Assembly: GCA_021463845.1 (NCBI GenBank)
Contig: JAJTXV010000010.1
Location: 1-39,468 of the forward strand
Reading direction: 5' to 3'
From: Anaerolineales bacterium
Lineage (GTDB): Bacteria > Chloroflexota > Anaerolineae > Anaerolineales > UBA11579
Length of the DNA: 39,468 nucleotides
The notes below the pieces were generated by a model. The model did no database searches. It was not told the DNA's origin and worked only from the letters and a program-made list of their open reading frames with translations. Below, in pieces: positions 3,158-9,619 of this stretch; position 1 is the stretch's first letter; the number at the start of each line of letters is the position of its first letter. The position numbers and the translations under genes were made by a program.

Positions 3158-4153
3158 CTATTGCTCGTCCAGCGGCTGGCCCAGCGCGGCGGGTGGGGCG
3201 GCCTGCAACAGGCCGCGCAGTGTGCGCCGCCAGGCCGCCGGCGCCCGCCGCCAAGTGGCCGGCGCTCGCGCCAGCAGTGGGGCGGCCAGCTTGCCGCTCA
3301 CCAGCAGCAGCACGACGATCATCAGCAGCCACGGCACGGCGTTGAAGGCCACCAGCGCCACCTGCGGAAAGCTGCGCTGCAGTACCGTGGCCAGCGCCTT
3401 GGTGGCGCCGAACAGCACCGCGCCGAGGGCGCCGCGCACGGGCGACCAGCCGCCGAAGATCACGATCGCCAATGCGATCCAGCCCATGCCACGCGTGTGC
3501 CCTTCGGCCCAGCCGATCTTGACATCCAGCGAATAGGCCGCGCCGGCGATGCCCACCAGCGCGCCACCCAGCACCGCATAGAGGTAGCGCAGCTTGCGCA
3601 CCGCCACGCCGCGGGTGAAGGCGGCCTCCGGCCGCTCACCCGCGCTGCGCAGCTCCAGTCCGGCCCGGGTGCGGAACAAGAACCACCAGGTGACCGCCAC
3701 CAGGAGCAGGGCGAAATACACCACCGCATCCTGGCGGAAAAAGATCGGGCCGAGCACCGGAATGTCTTTGAGTACAGGGATGTGCCAAGCCGGCACGCTG
3801 GGGCCGGGCATGCGAGTGTAGCTCTGGCCCAGGAAGGCGCTCAGGCTATCGCCCAGCATGGCCAGCACAAAGCCGATCGCCACCTGGTTCTGGCGCAGGT
3901 GCAGGCTGCCGAAGGCGACGATGAGCGCGAACACTGCGCCCACGGCGGCGGCGGCCACGAAGCCCAGCAGCAGGCTGCCGCTGAGCAGCGCCGCCACGAA
4001 GCCGGCCAGCGCGGAGAGCAGCAGGCTGCCATCCATCGAAAGATTGATGACGCCGGCCCGCTCGCTGATCGTCTCGCCGCATACGGCAATGATCAGTGGG
4101 GCCGACTGCAGCAGAATGCTGCCAAAAATGGCAATGAGTTGGGTGCTATCCAT
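3158..4153 (-). CDS. BMP-type ABC importer permease, second subunit
   Basis: A 331-residue permease with 8-10 membrane segments. The pattern APLIIAVCGETISERAGVIN near the N terminus and SLDVKIGWAEGHTRGMGWI further on is typical of the BPD_transp_2 permease that pairs with BMP/PnrA-type binding proteins (nucleoside uptake; RbsC-like fold). The start at 4153 is chosen because AGGAGCT lies about 8 nt upstream; the in-frame ATG at 4183 lacks a site and lies deeper in the preceding gene. It overlaps the first permease by 8 nt. It forms the heteromeric channel with the gene at 4146-5189. Confidence 0.87.
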   Translation of the reverse strand: MDSTQLIAIFGSILLQSAPLIIAVCGETISERAGVINLSMDGSLLLSALAGFVAALLSGSLLLGFVAAAAVGAVFALIVAFGSLHLRQNQVAIGFVLAMLGDSLSAFLGQSYTRMPGPSVPAWHIPVLKDIPVLGPIFFRQDAVVYFALLLVAVTWWFLFRTRAGLELRSAGERPEAAFTRGVAVRKLRYLYAVLGGALVGIAGAAYSLDVKIGWAEGHTRGMGWIALAIVIFGGWSPVRGALGAVLFGATKALATVLQRSFPQVALVAFNAVPWLLMIVVLLLVSGKLAAPLLARAPATWRRAPAAWRRTLRGLLQAAPPAALGQPLDEQ

Positions 4154-5189
4154 TTTCGGAGCTCCTGTTTCGCCTGAAGGCACGGCGCACGCGGGCGTAG
4201 TTGCCGAACAGCAGCACCAGCAGCACCAGTACGCCGGTCAATATGTCGCCCAGGGCCGAGTGCAGTTGGGTGCGGAGTTGCAATGTAATACTGCCATTGA
4301 GCACGGCGGAGAAGAAAAAGGCCACCAACGGCGTCAGCGCCAGGCGGAAGCCCGCCAGCAGCACCACCATCAGCGCCAGATACCCGATGCCGCCGGAGAT
4401 GCTCTGGCGCAGGCTGTCGAACCAGCTCAGCACCCGCACGCCGCCGCCCAGCCCGGCCAGCGCGCCGCACAGCGCCATCGCCAGCAGCAATTCACGATCG
4501 CTGGAGACGCCGAGTAGAAAAGCCGAGCGGGCATTCTGGCCCAGCGCCTTGAGGCGTAAGCCCCAATGGCTGTTGGTCAGCAGCAAGGCCACACCCGCGA
4601 ATGCCAACACTGCCAACACCAGCGAGAGCAGGCTGAGGCGTGAGTTCTCGAACAGGGGCAGCAAGGCGTGCGCGCCGAATGGCTGCGTGCCGCGGAAGCT
4701 GCCGCCCTCGGGCGGCTGCCAGGGCCCGGCGATCAAATAATTGGTGAACAGGATCGCAAGATTATTGAGCGCCAGCCCGCCAAAGATCTCGTGCACGCCG
4801 CCGCGCGTTTTCAATAACCCAGCCAGCGCCGCCCACAGGGCGCCGCCGGCCATGGCGGCCGCTAACTCCATCGGAATTTGCAGTCCGGCCGGCAGCTCGA
4901 CCCGCAGTGCCACCCAGCTGGCGGCGATGGCGCCCATGATGATCTGGCCCTCAATGCCAATGTTCCACAGCCCGGCTTTGAAGGTGAGCAGCAGCCCGCT
5001 GGCCGCCAGCAGCAGCGGCACTAGGAAGGCAAGCACACTATAAACACGCGCACTGGTGCCGAATGCGCCCTGCCACATGGCGCCATACGCATCAATGGGC
5101 GATGTGCCCATCGCCAGCAACAGCAGGGTGGTAACCAGCAGGGCGGCCAGCCCAGGCAGCAGCGGCCAGATGCGCTCCAGCCGGCTCAC
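4146..5189 (-). CDS. BMP-type ABC importer permease, first subunit
   Basis: A 347-residue inner-membrane permease of the BPD_transp_2 class. Diagnostic stretches are FKAGLWNIGIEGQIIMGA and GGVHEIFGGLALNNLA, as in nucleoside/sugar permeases paired with BMP lipoproteins. The start is GTG at 5189: its GTGA overlaps the ATPase stop codon (4-nt overlap), a coupled junction. The much longer upstream frame is a shadow of the ATPase. About eight to ten membrane helices are visible. The substrate cannot be read from the sequence; purine nucleosides are the commonest known for this type. Confidence 0.87.
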   Translation of the reverse strand: MSRLERIWPLLPGLAALLVTTLLLLAMGTSPIDAYGAMWQGAFGTSARVYSVLAFLVPLLLAASGLLLTFKAGLWNIGIEGQIIMGAIAASWVALRVELPAGLQIPMELAAAMAGGALWAALAGLLKTRGGVHEIFGGLALNNLAILFTNYLIAGPWQPPEGGSFRGTQPFGAHALLPLFENSRLSLLSLVLAVLAFAGVALLLTNSHWGLRLKALGQNARSAFLLGVSSDRELLLAMALCGALAGLGGGVRVLSWFDSLRQSISGGIGYLALMVVLLAGFRLALTPLVAFFFSAVLNGSITLQLRTQLHSALGDILTGVLVLLVLLFGNYARVRRAFRRNRSSENG

Positions 5190-6646
5190 AGTGCACCGCC
5201 GATCAGGTGGCCCAGCTCGTCGGCGCTGGTCTCGGCGGCGGGCAGGCTGCGCAGCAGCCGCCCGCCGGAAAACACCGCGATCTGGTCGCTGCGCGCCGCG
5301 ATCTCGTCCAGGTCGGCCGAGACGAACAGGATCGCCGTGCCCTGGGCGCGGCGTTGGTCCAGCTGTTCCCAGATCCAATCCGTCGAGCGAATATCCAGCC
5401 CACGGGTGGGGTGCTCCATCAGGATCAGTTTCAGGTTCTGCGGCAGCATGGCGAACAGAAAGCGCTGCTGGTTGCCGCCGGACAGATTCTCAATGTACGA
5501 CTCAGGCTGGCCGACCACTTGGTAGGTGCTGATGTGTTGCTCGGCCAGTTTGCGGTTCTGCGGCCAGTCCACCAGCAGCCCGTGGGTATGGCTTACCAGC
5601 GCCATATGCTCGGTCAGGGTCAGGCCGGCCACCAAGCCCTCTTCGAGGCGGCCGGCGGCCAGGTAGGCCACGCCGTGTTGGCGCGCCAGCGGGTAGTTCC
5701 AATCGGGCTGGCTTTCGCCGCCCAATAGCAGGCTGCCGCCGCTCAGCGGCAGCAGCCCGGCGCAGGCGCGTAGCAGCAGCTCCTGCCCGCTGCCTTCCAG
5801 GCCGGCCAGGCCGAGCACCTGCCCGGCTTGCAGTTGCAAGCTGACCGGCTCCAGTTCAAGCCGGCCCGTGTGCACCTGCACCGACTGCAAACTGAGTGCT
5901 GGCGCGTGCTGGCCCAGCTGGCGGCGAGCGGGCCGCGGCGCCAGCTCGTCAAACATCAGGCTCACCAGTTGCTGGTTGGGGCAGGGCAGCGGCAGGCCAC
6001 CCACCAGGCGGCCCTTGCGCAATACGAAGGCATAGTCGCACAGCTCTTGCACTTCATCCAGTTTGTGCGACACGAGGATCAGCGTTTTGCCTTCTTCGCG
6101 CGCCAGGGTGCGCATGGAGGCGAACAGGATGTCCTTCTGTTCAGCGCTGATGCCGGTGGTTGGCTCGTCCAATATCAGCACTTGGGCGCCGCCAGCCAAC
6201 AGGCGCAGCAGCTCCAGCTGCTGGCGCTCACCCATGCTCAATTCACTCGTATGCTCGTGGGGGTCAATATCGAAGCCGTAGCGCTGTGCCAGCGCCTCCA
6301 GCGCTCGGGCCGCTTGCCGCGGGCTTTCGCCGCCGGCGGCGCGGCCTAGCAGGTAATTCTCCAGCACGGTGAAGACCGGCACATCCAACGGCTCCTGATA
6401 CAGCATGCCGACGCCAGCCGCCAGCGCCTGGCGCGGCGAGGCGAAATGCTGGGGTGCTCCGCCCAGCAGGATCTCGCCGCGGTCCGGCCGCTGGTAGCCA
6501 GACAGGATCTTCATCAGCGTGCTCTTGCCCGCGCCATTCTCGCCCAGCAGGCCGTAAATGCGCCCGGGCTCGAACAGCACAGAAATTTCATCGTTGGCAA
6601 CCAGGCTGCCAAACTGTTTGTGGATCGTGTTAAGTTGTACCTGCAT
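5186..6646 (-). CDS. BMP-type ABC importer ATPase, duplicated
   Basis: A 486-residue protein with two fused nucleotide-binding domains, like RbsA or NupA. The first has Walker A GENGAGKST (about residue 34), signature LSMGERQQ, Walker B VLILDEPTTGIS and switch VSHKLDEV. The second has the usual degenerate P-loop GLEGSGQELL, signature LSGGNQQRF and LILMEHPTRGLDI, where the catalytic Glu position is not canonical, as is normal for this half. The ATG at 6646 has no clear Shine-Dalgarno; it is chosen because family members begin shortly before the first beta strand. It is separated from the binding-protein gene by a terminator hairpin (6671-6713). Confidence 0.88.
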   Translation of the reverse strand: MQVQLNTIHKQFGSLVANDEISVLFEPGRIYGLLGENGAGKSTLMKILSGYQRPDRGEILLGGAPQHFASPRQALAAGVGMLYQEPLDVPVFTVLENYLLGRAAGGESPRQAARALEALAQRYGFDIDPHEHTSELSMGERQQLELLRLLAGGAQVLILDEPTTGISAEQKDILFASMRTLAREEGKTLILVSHKLDEVQELCDYAFVLRKGRLVGGLPLPCPNQQLVSLMFDELAPRPARRQLGQHAPALSLQSVQVHTGRLELEPVSLQLQAGQVLGLAGLEGSGQELLLRACAGLLPLSGGSLLLGGESQPDWNYPLARQHGVAYLAAGRLEEGLVAGLTLTEHMALVSHTHGLLVDWPQNRKLAEQHISTYQVVGQPESYIENLSGGNQQRFLFAMLPQNLKLILMEHPTRGLDIRSTDWIWEQLDQRRAQGTAILFVSADLDEIAARSDQIAVFSGGRLLRSLPAAETSADELGHLIGGAL

Positions 6647-6670: not shown

Positions 6671-6713
6671 AAAAAAATCTGTGCTGGCTGCCGCATGCGC
6701 GGCAGCCAGCACA
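6671..6713 (-). terminator. Intra-operon hairpin terminator after the binding-protein gene
   Basis: A 15-bp perfect stem (6680-6694 with 6699-6713, 4-nt loop) lies 14 nt past the binding-protein stop on the minus strand. It is followed by seven U in the RNA (A run at 6671-6677), the form of an intrinsic terminator. It probably lets only part of transcription continue into the ATPase and permeases, giving excess binding protein, a common arrangement in ABC importers. Confidence 0.85.
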
Positions 6714-6726
6714 GTGGTCCTTGTGC

Positions 6727-7902
6727 TTACTGGCTGGGTCCGTTCATGCCTTCGAGCAGTTGGGGCAGGTACCAGATCTCTTCGTCGGTGCCTACTGCGC
6801 CTGCGGCGATGTAGGACGAACCATCCTGCAGGTTGATGGGGCCAGCCCACACGGCCACTTCGCCGCTGGCCAGCTTGCTGATGTAGTCGGCCAGGTTGGC
6901 GGCGGCTTCCTCGCTGAGGCCGGGGCCGTTCAGCCAACCAACCGAGCTGCTGTCCAGATCGCTCAGGTCATCCCAGTTCGGGCCGTTCCACAACCAGCTC
7001 TGGCTCCACTCACCTTCGATGACGGCGGTGGCGACTGCCAGATAGTCGGGGCCCCAGTTGAAGAAGGGCACACCCAGGCAGATCTCCGGCGCATTGTCGC
7101 AGGCGCCCAGGTAGTCGTACGGCACGGCCCACACAGCGTCACCCGCTGCGGCGCGCTGGCCGGCCACGTTGATGGCTTCGGTGGTATCGATCCCGCTCAG
7201 CACCACGTCAACACCGGTGTCGAGGAAGTTGGTGGTCACCTCGGTCGGGTCGCTGGTGACGCCGGGGATGTTGAACCAGAAGCCGATCCAGCTTACCGTG
7301 AATTCCAGGTCATCCGGGTTCTCGCCGCGGTAGGTCTCGTAGCAGTGGCGGGCGCCCAGGTAGGCCGAAGCCGTCAGGCGCAGTGTCTCGTGGTTGATCA
7401 GCGGGCCAACATAGCCCAGCTGGCCGGTCTGCGTGGTCAGCGCTGCGGCGCAACCAGCCACGGCCTTCATCTCTTCCATGCGGCCCATGACGTTGCTCAG
7501 GTTGGCCGGGCCTTCTCCGGTGAGGGCGTCATCACCGGAGATATTGACGAAGACCACATCCGGGTACTTGGCGGCCACAGTGGTGGTATCTTCTTCGAAC
7601 TCATCGGAGGTGGTGAAGATGAGCGTAGCGCCTTGCGCCACCATCTCGTCCACCACGCCTTCCAGCGTGGCTTCCGGCTTGTCAGCCGGATTGAGCAGAT
7701 CGAACACGATCATTTCGGCGCCGGGCAGGTGCTCCACAACATACTGCCCGCCCTCGAAGTGCGCCTGGCTCCAGCCGTGGTCATTCTGCGGGCCGACCAG
7801 GATCATGCCAAAAGTGAAGCCTTCACCGCTGGCGCTGCTGCCGCCACAGGCGGCCAGCAGCAGGGCGGCCAGGGCGAGAAATAAAAGTGCTTTTTTATGC
7901 AT
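6727..7902 (-). CDS. BMP-family ABC substrate-binding lipoprotein
   Basis: A 391-residue lipoprotein; the signal peptide ends LLLAAC with Cys at residue 19 and a GGSSASGE spacer. FGMILVGPQNDHGWSQAH is the typical N-terminal strand of BMP/PnrA-like proteins, and GQLGYVGPL and DVVLSGIDTTEAI continue that fold. It captures the substrate outside the cell for the permeases downstream. A GAGGAG site about 8 nt before the ATG fixes the start. Relatives bind purine nucleosides, but BMP-like proteins for other ligands exist, so the substrate stays open. The long structured leader (7903-8145) suggests control by attenuation or a riboswitch. Confidence 0.9.
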   Translation of the reverse strand: MHKKALLFLALAALLLAACGGSSASGEGFTFGMILVGPQNDHGWSQAHFEGGQYVVEHLPGAEMIVFDLLNPADKPEATLEGVVDEMVAQGATLIFTTSDEFEEDTTTVAAKYPDVVFVNISGDDALTGEGPANLSNVMGRMEEMKAVAGCAAALTTQTGQLGYVGPLINHETLRLTASAYLGARHCYETYRGENPDDLEFTVSWIGFWFNIPGVTSDPTEVTTNFLDTGVDVVLSGIDTTEAINVAGQRAAAGDAVWAVPYDYLGACDNAPEICLGVPFFNWGPDYLAVATAVIEGEWSQSWLWNGPNWDDLSDLDSSSVGWLNGPGLSEEAAANLADYISKLASGEVAVWAGPINLQDGSSYIAAGAVGTDEEIWYLPQLLEGMNGPSQ

Positions 7903-7928
7903 CAGTCTCTCCTCAAATAAAGGTTGGT

Positions 7929-7985
7929 CAAAAAGACAAAAAGCTGAGGGTGGTGAACTCGCTCTCGGGTCACCTCCTCAGCTTT
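7929..7985 (-). terminator. Leader terminator hairpin proximal to the binding-protein gene
   Basis: In the RNA, AAAGCUGAGG (7985-7976) pairs with CCUCAGCUUU (7949-7940). An inner GGUGA/UCACC stem lies inside, and UUUGUCUUUUUG follows. It sits within the predicted leader, about 27 nt before the start codon, so it would act as a regulatory terminator rather than a gene-end terminator. Confidence 0.6.
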
Positions 7986-8000
7986 GGCGTAGATTATGAG

Positions 8001-8032
8001 AAAACAAACGTCCCATCAGGATGATGGGACGT
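8001..8032 (-). terminator. Leader hairpin with U-rich tail, distal
   Basis: An 11-bp perfect stem, ACGTCCCATCA (8008-8018 on the plus strand) with its complement at 8022-8032 and a 3-nt loop, is followed on the minus strand by TTGTTTTCTC. It lies upstream of the second leader hairpin, giving tandem terminator-like structures in one leader. Confidence 0.5.
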
Positions 8033-8151
8033 GATTTCGGCTGTGGCTTACACTCCTCCCCTTGTGGTTTCCAGGCCTGGGGAGCGTAGAAACCGTGCAT
8101 GCGTCCTTATGGTGTGGGCGTATACATGGCGGGTGAGGGTGATAAGGCCCC

Positions 8152-8180
8152 AATATACAGGCAAAATATGGCCGAGTCAA
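8152..8180 (-). promoter_or_regulatory. Sigma-70-type promoter of the BMP importer operon
   Basis: On the minus strand, -35 TTGACT (8180-8175) and -10 TATATT (8157-8152) are separated by exactly 17 nt, the best promoter seen in the window. The start of transcription is expected near 8145. Confidence 0.75.
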
Positions 8181-8183
8181 GCT

Positions 8184-8205
8184 TTTGGTGCAAACTGGTA
8201 CCAAA
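8184..8205. promoter_or_regulatory. Operator-like dyad between divergent promoters
   Basis: TTTGGT (8184-8189) and ACCAAA (8200-8205) form a 22-bp dyad. It lies 4 nt beyond the -35 box of the BMP promoter and just ahead of the -10-like hexamer of the D-amino-acid oxidase gene. The placement suits a repressor or activator acting on both genes. No regulator gene for it is evident in the window. Confidence 0.35.
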
Positions 8206-8212
8206 GAGGGTC

Positions 8213-8218
8213 TAGAAT
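8213..8218 (+). promoter_or_regulatory. -10 hexamer of a probable leaderless promoter (D-amino-acid oxidase)
   Basis: TAGAAT ends exactly 6 nt before the ATG at 8225, and no Shine-Dalgarno precedes that ATG. Transcription starting 7 nt past the hexamer would begin at the start codon. No good -35 box is visible. Confidence 0.45.
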
Positions 8219-8224
8219 GAGCGC

Positions 8225-9175
8225 ATGACCTCACGATCTGTGCTCGTCCTCGGCTGTGGCGTCTCCGGCCTGAGCAGCAGCATTCTGCTGCTGCAGGCCG
8301 GGCACGCCGTCACCATCTGGGCCCGCGAGCTGCCGCCGCACACCACCTCCAACCAGGCCGCCGCGCTGTGGTTTCCGTATCTGGCGCATCCCATCGAGCG
8401 GGTTGGCCCGTGGGCCAGCCGCACGCTGGCCTATTTCAGCCAGCACTTGCTGCCTGACCCGGCCAGCGGCTGCCGCCCGACCCTGGTGCAGGACCTGTAT
8501 ACTCACCCAGTCGAGACGCCCTGGTGGGCCGGCGCGGTGGCCGGCTACCGTCGCCTGGCGGCCAGCGAGCTGCCCGCCGGTTATGTGGATGGCTTTGAGA
8601 CTGAGTCGGTCGTGATCGATACCAGCGTGTACATGGATTACCTAGTGGATTGGTTCCGCAAGCTCGGCGGCGTCATCGTGCAGCGTGAGGTAGCCAGCAT
8701 CGAGGAGGCCACCTTAGAAAGCAAGCTGGTGGTGAATTGCACCGGCCTCGGCTCGCGCCAGCTGTTCGGCGACGAGAGCCTGTACCCGGTGCGCGGCCAG
8801 ACGGTGAAAGTGCGCCCGAATGGGGTGGTGCACAGCATCCTGGATGACGAAGGGCCGAACGGGCTGGGTTACATCATCCCGCGCAGCGCCGACATTGTGC
8901 TGGGCGGCACGGCCCAGGCCAATGACTCGGACACCAACGTGCGCGCCGCAGACCAGGCCGACATTCTGCGCAAGGTCGCCAACCTGCACCCCGCTTTCGG
9001 CGAGGTGCAGGTGCTCTCGGCCGGCGTGGGCCTGCGCCCCGTGCGCCACGAAGTGCGCCTGGAGGCCGAGCGCATCGGCGAGGCCACCGTGGTGCACAAC
9101 TACGGCCACGGCGGGGCCGGCTTTACGCTCAGCTGGGGCTGCGCGGAGGAGGCAAGGATGAAGGCGGAAGGATGA
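8225..9175 (+). CDS. FAD-dependent D-amino-acid oxidase family protein
   Basis: A 316-residue flavoprotein of the DAO family. It has the N-terminal dinucleotide-binding motif LGCGVSGLSSSILL, the middle PVRGQTVKV segment, GLRPVRHEVRLE with the substrate Arg expected in D-amino-acid oxidases, and the C-terminal VHNYGHGGAGFTLSWGCA loop that closes over FAD. It would oxidise D-amino acids to keto acids with H2O2 release. The ATG is the only fitting start and appears leaderless. The last residues (ARMKAEG) and the stop codon come from the inverted-repeat arm of the neighbouring cassette, so the native C terminus was probably replaced. It diverges from the BMP importer and may be co-regulated. Confidence 0.88.
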   Translation: MTSRSVLVLGCGVSGLSSSILLLQAGHAVTIWARELPPHTTSNQAAALWFPYLAHPIERVGPWASRTLAYFSQHLLPDPASGCRPTLVQDLYTHPVETPWWAGAVAGYRRLAASELPAGYVDGFETESVVIDTSVYMDYLVDWFRKLGGVIVQREVASIEEATLESKLVVNCTGLGSRQLFGDESLYPVRGQTVKVRPNGVVHSILDDEGPNGLGYIIPRSADIVLGGTAQANDSDTNVRAADQADILRKVANLHPAFGEVQVLSAGVGLRPVRHEVRLEAERIGEATVVHNYGHGGAGFTLSWGCAEEARMKAEG

Positions 9176-9251: not shown

Positions 9252-9619
9252 ATGCGGGATGAGAATAGCAATCCGCCAGACCTAAGCAACGCACGCGAAC
9301 TTTTGCTATCAGAATTATTAGATTGTATGCGAGCTTGCCCAAAAATACGGAAGCACAGGTGCTTGGTAAGCAACTACTCAGAGCAGGAACATCTGTTGGG
9401 GCGCAATATGCAGAGGCTCAACGCGCCAAATCCGATAAAGATTTGATTACAAAAATCGAAGGCTCTCTTCAAGAGCTGGAGGAAGTGCTGTATTGGATAG
9501 ACTTGCTAACCGAGATGAAACTGAGCAATCCAGAGACACTTGCGGCTCTGAACAAGGAAACAAATGAACTCCTTGCCATCTTCGTTACCATTGTCAGGCG
9601 AGTCAAGACCCGACGCTAG
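9252..9619 (+). pseudogene. Four-helix-bundle (S23/IVS-type) protein, frameshifted
   Basis: The start reads MRDENSNPPDL in the first frame, after a GGGAGAGG site. The rest, RTFAIRIIRLYASLPKN then GKQLLRAGTSVGAQYAEAQ, KIEGSLQELEEVLYWIDLL and a basic end, is in the next frame and matches the S23-like four-helix-bundle family encoded in 23S rRNA intervening sequences and in dispersed loci. One base appears lost near 9283-9286 (CTAAGCAA, expected CTAAAGCAA). The second frame has a TAG at 9266 and no ATG before the homologous part; only a TTG at 9323 could start a shortened product. It is either a true pseudogene or a homopolymer sequencing error. Confidence 0.75.

Follow-up and report, generated by a model that had tools for sequence, protein, structure and literature searches.

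Most of the known translation-coupled attenuators come from enterobacteria and bacilli. In the pyrBI operon of Escherichia coli, this form of control makes use of NTP-sensitive pausing of RNA polymerase in a base run. The pyrBI terminator itself lies within a 135-bp leader peptide gene, and an adjacent ribosome suppresses termination there (PMC4824070). In the mgtCBR operon of Salmonella, the peptide encoded by the leader ORF mgtM is not conserved, whereas an adenine run within that ORF is (PMC3641672). Here we describe the leader of an importer operon in a 39,468-nt stretch of DNA (contig JAJTXV010000010.1; hereafter the window) from an Anaerolineales bacterium of the Chloroflexota with a genome of 2.3 Mb. 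Based on sequence comparison, we interpret this leader, with a probability of roughly 0.6, as a translation-coupled transcription attenuator of the pyrBI/mgtCBR kind.

The importer operon, its promoter and its phyletic spread

The leader (8152-7903, minus strand) is located between a divergent gene for a DAO/ThiO-like oxidoreductase and the regulated gene bmp (6730..7902, minus; ATG at 7902), which codes for a PnrA-like substrate-binding lipoprotein (Pfam Bmp, E=8e-14). Downstream of bmp lie the genes of an ABC importer (3161..6640, minus), namely one for the ATPase (5189 to about 6640) and two for permeases (4149-5378 and 3161-4183), to which the Pfam domains ABC_tran and BPD_transp_2 were assigned. 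The closest relatives of the BMP protein in the PDB are 3s99 (E=7e-30) and AtzT (6pi5, E=3.5e-18); AtzT binds guanine with a KD of 0.11 uM and adenine with one of 2.5 uM, and adenine has been modelled in 3s99 (PMC6834077). Because these relatives bind purines, and because the BMP protein, in our reading of the alignment, seems to retain both the stacking Trp and the Glu found in the AtzT site, its substrate is likely of the purine type.

The surroundings of bmp show several further features. The divergent DAO/ThiO-like FAD oxidoreductase gene (8225-9172, plus) is placed beside the bmp promoter in near congeners and elsewhere in L059, and a small ORF (9323-9619, plus) bears, as judged by eye only, a likeness to four-helix-bundle (S23-type) proteins. 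Directly 3' of bmp, before the ATPase gene, there is an inverted repeat (6679-6714) whose 16-bp arms match perfectly around a loop of 4 nt and which has no clear T tract; hairpins resembling it occupy the same position in orthologues. It may protect the 3' end of the bmp mRNA, thereby providing for an excess of the binding protein.

The leader is headed by a sigma-70-type promoter, TTGACT-17-TATATT (8152..8180, minus), which is the better of the two promoter-like sites found, against 0.5 expected. The comparison set consists of ten leaders only, from about four independent lineages and mostly from metagenome assemblies, with the start codons of the bmp orthologues picked by rule. Across it the promoter is conserved: TTGAC[TAC]-17-TATATT is present in 10/10 congeneric bmp leaders, with both the 17-nt spacer and the -10 TATATT invariant. 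From its position, transcription is predicted to start at about 8145-8143, which gives a leader of ~240 nt up to the bmp ATG. The leader folds at -83.9 kcal/mol (z -4.8), a value that beats all 200 of 200 shuffles and is due mostly to two hairpins.

In a DNA search of 61 genomes, 5 congeners yielded the leader, with identities of 78-89%, and four further congeners, reached via their bmp orthologues, share its layout in a very different sequence. The same architecture, in one copy per genome, thus precedes bmp in 10/10 congeneric genomes with a clear bmp orthologue; the element is absent from the one (incomplete) congener without a clear one. All ten leaders have TATATT, then after exactly 22 nt CCATNTAT, then GGGGAGGAGTGT starting 68-88 nt further downstream, and then a terminator. 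The 14-base string GGGGAGGAGTGTMA occurs as a single copy in each of the ten genomes, always in the bmp leader, and in 0/13 genomes of other genera in the family, while a gapped pattern of the leader gave no further match in 396 genomes of the class. The first-pass annotation had named a lack of conservation among orthologues as the observation that would speak against its proposal: such a lack is seen beyond the genus, where the leader is absent, but not within it.

Two leader ORFs, a purine run and a covarying terminator

The first of the leader ORFs, uORF1 (8107..8127, minus), begins ~18 nt into the predicted transcript, with a very short 5' UTR and without a Shine-Dalgarno (SD) site, and reads ATG TAT ACG CCC ACA CCA TAA (MYTPTP). 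A homologous uORF1 in frame 0 is present in 10/10 congeners; the position of its start varies (nt 10, 13, 16 or 25 past the -10 box) but its frame does not. The other peptides, with codons counted from the -10 box, are MYTPNP and, each up to its stop, MTFTPIYDTFFVRPPAE, MSTPIYGVHWLRPPAD and MTPIYGVTPRTAKK. The motif CCAUNUAU, constantly 22 nt after the -10 box, is readable as uORF1 codons, P-[IM]-Y or A-M-Y occurs in frame, and the sole variable base (N) of CCATNTAT is the third position of an Ile/Met codon (ATA, ATC, ATG). Two lineages share a terminal RPPA[DE] with third-base changes only, and the last six uORF1 codons of L017 and L021 differ at third positions only. Changes at codon positions 1, 2 and 3 number 0, 2 and 3 in group 1, and 3, 5 and 9 among L017, L019 and L021. 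An open frame-0 ATG of this kind arises in 7-10% of shuffles per lineage. Each of these lines is modest; combined, they make it likely that uORF1 is a real short ORF, and the comparison fixes its frame. In L017, L019 and L021, no more than 10-13 nt separate the -10 box from the start of uORF1, which has no SD there either and would be nearly leaderless. The lack of an SD and the short 5' UTR speak against its translation, as leaderless genes, found in only a few Chloroflexi genomes, were put at just 4-6% in these (PMC3160421).

The second, ORF2 (7978..8100, minus), has 40 codons. Its start lies 6 nt past the uORF1 stop; from there it crosses the first terminator (T1) and reaches its TGA in the 5' arm of the second hairpin. 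This anatomy recurs in every lineage: the ATG lies 3-9 nt past the uORF1 stop, and 40-46 codons run across T1 to a TGA at the GGAGGTG sequence that we term box B. In 3-4% of shuffles per lineage, an ATG likewise falls no more than 10 nt past the uORF1 stop and has a frame open to box B. Among the members of each group, ORF2 differs in net length by multiples of 3. SD-like sites stand before it in the divergent leaders (GGAG-7-ATG, GGA-7-ATG and AGAGGA-5-ATG); for the group to which the window belongs, the SD (AAGGA) is only 3 nt before the ATG. Across the ten leaders, neither a conserved peptide nor a synonymous bias indicative of codon-level constraint was found in ORF2. We rejected the idea that it encodes a conserved small protein, as the frame of the purine run varies by lineage and the changes are mostly non-synonymous.

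This purine run, GGGGAGGAGTGT (8050..8061, minus), precedes T1 by 11-17 nt and is identical in 10/10 congeners, single-copy in each genome and absent in the family's other genera. Since it falls in three different ORF2 frames, being read as GEEC, RGGVS and GRSV in the peptides of three groups, sequence comparison indicates that it is conserved as nucleic acid. It may act as a pause for RNA polymerase, as an internal SD-like site, or as both: it matches the elemental pause pattern G-10 Y-1 G+1 (as scored with ad hoc weights), and its duplex with the anti-SD has an energy of -10.4 kcal/mol, compared with -8.6 to -10.2 for the bmp SD. A pyrimidine segment (8082..8092, minus) is able to pair with it; such pairings are individually weak, with energies matched by 2-90% of shuffles. 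In all congeners, the distance from the uORF1 stop to the start of the run's best upstream partner is 16-24 nt. As an antiterminator, a helix between the 5' arm of T1 and the purine run was discarded, being weak and different from lineage to lineage, and no conserved antiterminator pairing was found across the leaders.

T1 (8008..8032, minus), detected by a terminator scan, is an 11-bp hairpin followed by the T tract TTTGTTTT. In the gap-free alignment of its stem, eight pairs are changed on both sides between lineages with pairing retained, and a T-rich tract lies 3' of it in all lineages; by this measure T1 is maintained by compensatory base-pair changes across the genus. It lies within ORF2 in every lineage, and thus, as in pyrBI, an ORF with predicted translation spans the terminator. 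Hairpin 2 (7940..7985, minus), which overlaps the ORF2 stop, is terminator-like: the stem's own T run is followed by TTGTCTTTTTG, and with its bulges and longer loop it was missed by a simple scan. It folds at -16 to -26 kcal/mol in congeners, with a T tract that is strong in six of them and weak in the remaining ones. T1 is therefore a kept terminator hairpin with a U tract between promoter and gene, as is expected of an attenuator; because a terminator kept by selection sits between a promoter and its own gene, the leader would be either an attenuator or a small RNA ending at T1. The first-pass annotation had anticipated several of these elements: its promoter with a leader of about 240 nt and its two terminator-like hairpins ahead of the binding-protein gene are confirmed, and its suggestion of an attenuator of a BMP-type importer is supported by the conserved promoter, the covarying T1 and the layout common to 10/10 congeners.

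Proposed mode of control and competing explanations

From this layout we infer the following mode of control. Transcription would start just upstream of uORF1, and both ORFs would be translated. T1 would form by default, such that transcription terminates after ~145 nt whenever no ribosome is close behind RNA polymerase in ORF2. A ribosome closely trailing the polymerase in ORF2 would instead keep T1, and likewise the 5' arm of hairpin 2, from folding, allowing the importer operon to be transcribed; the ORF2 stop codon would position this ribosome over that 5' arm. The purine run would most likely pause RNA polymerase so that the ribosome catches up, or, serving as an SD-like site, work via the ribosome. 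Conceivable alternatives are that the run makes ribosomes pause through its SD-like character, or that uORF1 acts as the sensor. For the signal, our favoured guess is purine or nucleotide supply, by analogy with the purine-binding relatives of the gene product. Because the BMP protein resembles purine-binding proteins, the run might even be an NTP-sensitive polymerase pause. The leader would then be a purine mirror of pyrBI, in which a shortage of GTP/ATP stalls the polymerase in GGGGAGGAGTGT, the ribosome suppresses T1 and the importer is made, with neither an aptamer nor a regulator protein being needed; we regard this specific version as a tentative suggestion that may well be wrong.

The first-pass annotation had considered a riboswitch, either new or a diverged purine-type element. 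Under such an explanation, helices P2 and P3 and a CUCCCC/GGGGAG pseudoknot before T1 would bind a purine or nucleoside and thereby control T1. A metabolite-importer gene, a terminator and an invariant 12-nt block would suit it, as would a pseudoknot-capable layout in six congeners with one compensatory pair; indeed, the GGUUUC/GAAACC and CUCCCC/GGGGAG helices that the annotation had pointed out are both present and could co-form as a pseudoknot. Its observation that the leader resembles no known class also agrees with our searches: at the gathering score, Rfam yielded no riboswitch or leader class in the whole window and matched only a tRNA, and even at E<=10 the region 7700-8400 gave nothing beyond eukaryotic families and a chrB-a fragment, itself unrelated, with the purine riboswitch and T-box among the models that found nothing. 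The folding of the region before T1 is, however, modest and inconsistent: z lies between -1.6 and -2.7 for six leaders, but is -0.2 in L021 and +1.8, poorer than the shuffles, in L022; these two most divergent leaders fold weakly or not at all. RNAalifold found no convincing common structure in all ten leaders, their consensus amounting to only -9 kcal/mol. The covariation among orthologous leaders that the annotation had looked to is seen for T1, with its eight compensatory pairs; of the putative aptamer helices, GGUUUC/GAAACC has a single compensatory change in group 1, and 89/500 shuffles reach as many.

Two candidate structures of this kind were tried and rejected. Helix P1, joining the 5' end to the purine run in the minimum-energy fold, has its outer part at or before the predicted transcription start and is not retained in divergent lineages; the pseudoknot of P3 with the pyrimidine:purine helix is possible in six congeners, with one compensatory pair that is not above shuffles. 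Further, the element is confined to one genus and one locus, and CCAUNUAU varies only at a codon third position. The conserved blocks are better explained by a leader ORF and a frame-indifferent run, and we consider a riboswitch unlikely. There is a more general caution in this, namely that the leader of an importer gene, when it is structured and carries both a terminator and an invariant block, can easily be mistaken for a riboswitch until reading frames are compared.

Two invariant blocks, one of them at a fixed distance from the promoter, together with a single-locus, genus-restricted distribution, might alternatively point to a protein-controlled attenuator or operator, in which CCATNTAT and GGGGAGGAGTGT bind a regulator on the DNA or the nascent RNA; the block at fixed distance, however, consists of codons in one frame with variation at the wobble position only, which renders such a regulator distinctly improbable. 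Less probable still is a small RNA ending at T1, whose 145-nt product acts in trans while bmp is served by readthrough: the strong conserved terminator after ~145 nt and stretches rich in purines or pyrimidines, potentially able to base-pair with further RNAs, would be in keeping with it, but the element is always immediately 5' of bmp, is missing in the incomplete congener lacking a clear bmp orthologue, and its ORFs would be left unexplained. Finally, a classical amino-acid attenuator, in which stalling at Pro/Tyr codons of uORF1 decides between pyrimidine:purine-run pairing and T1, can claim the proline codons (TPTP, RPPA) and a pairing segment 16-24 nt past the uORF1 stop, a spacing compatible with control by ribosome position, but we give it hardly any credence, as uORF1 has few codons, with never more than two Pro or Phe codons in a row and no longer run to serve as regulatory codons, the pairing is not above chance in most sequences and no amino-acid genes lie downstream.

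Box B and comparison with described systems

Box B (GGAGGTG; 7971..7977, minus), which lies 75 nt before bmp, complements the anti-SD perfectly and lacks a start codon, is distributed more widely than the attenuator, and in the attenuator genus hairpin 2 is built around it. It occurs 70-142 nt 5' of bmp in 32/62 non-redundant orthologous leaders (shuffle mean 0.5, maximum 3), as opposed to 1/63 in the upstream control region; its carriers include L020, L023-L031, L054 and L064-L079. Within the consensus A-GGAGGTG-A-T, the GGAGGTG is an exact complement of the 16S 3' end, which is readable at L132 in the genome, and beyond this consensus no conserved positions were found around box B among the orthologous bmp leaders. 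In the leaders folded it is mostly predicted to be paired. A role as the SD of an additional leader ORF was rejected, with start codons at the usual distance (4-11 nt) not enriched and seen in only 5/32; so was a general genome feature, the pattern not being enriched over a reversed control. Start-less intergenic copies among the loci read are found mainly before bmp. Box B thus has the SD-like character without a start codon that is typical of STAB-SD, and by analogy it may be a 30S-binding stabiliser of that type (PMC4113751). Unlike STAB-SD of Bacillus thuringiensis cry3A, this candidate stabiliser stands 70-142 nt 5' of a substrate-binding-protein gene in Anaerolineae and, in the genus of the congeners, sits in a hairpin.

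With the purine riboswitch (RF00167) the leader shares the eight-base J2/3-like string UUUCUACG and a possible purine link via the gene product. The string had been noted in the first-pass annotation and is indeed present, but it is accompanied by no other purine-riboswitch feature: there is neither a covariance-model match nor a three-helix architecture. Another parallel is offered by mgtCBR, where a long leader with two short ORFs (mgtM and mgtP) and a conserved nucleotide run likewise precedes a transporter operon. In mgtCBR, however, clear intrinsic terminators are wanting and the ORFs are separate attenuators, whereas here T1 is clear and lies inside ORF2. It is this placement of an intrinsic terminator inside a leader ORF that recalls pyrBI with its PyrL of about 44 codons. 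The differences are that the run is of purines rather than of U, that an extra short ORF stands in front and a second hairpin at the ORF2 stop, and that the operon codes for an importer rather than a biosynthetic enzyme. If our interpretation is correct, an attenuator of two tandem mini-ORFs in Anaerolineae would mean that close coupling of transcription and translation is used for control in Chloroflexota; and if the purine run were the sensor, the textbook pyrBI switch would have a counterpart for purines in this leader.
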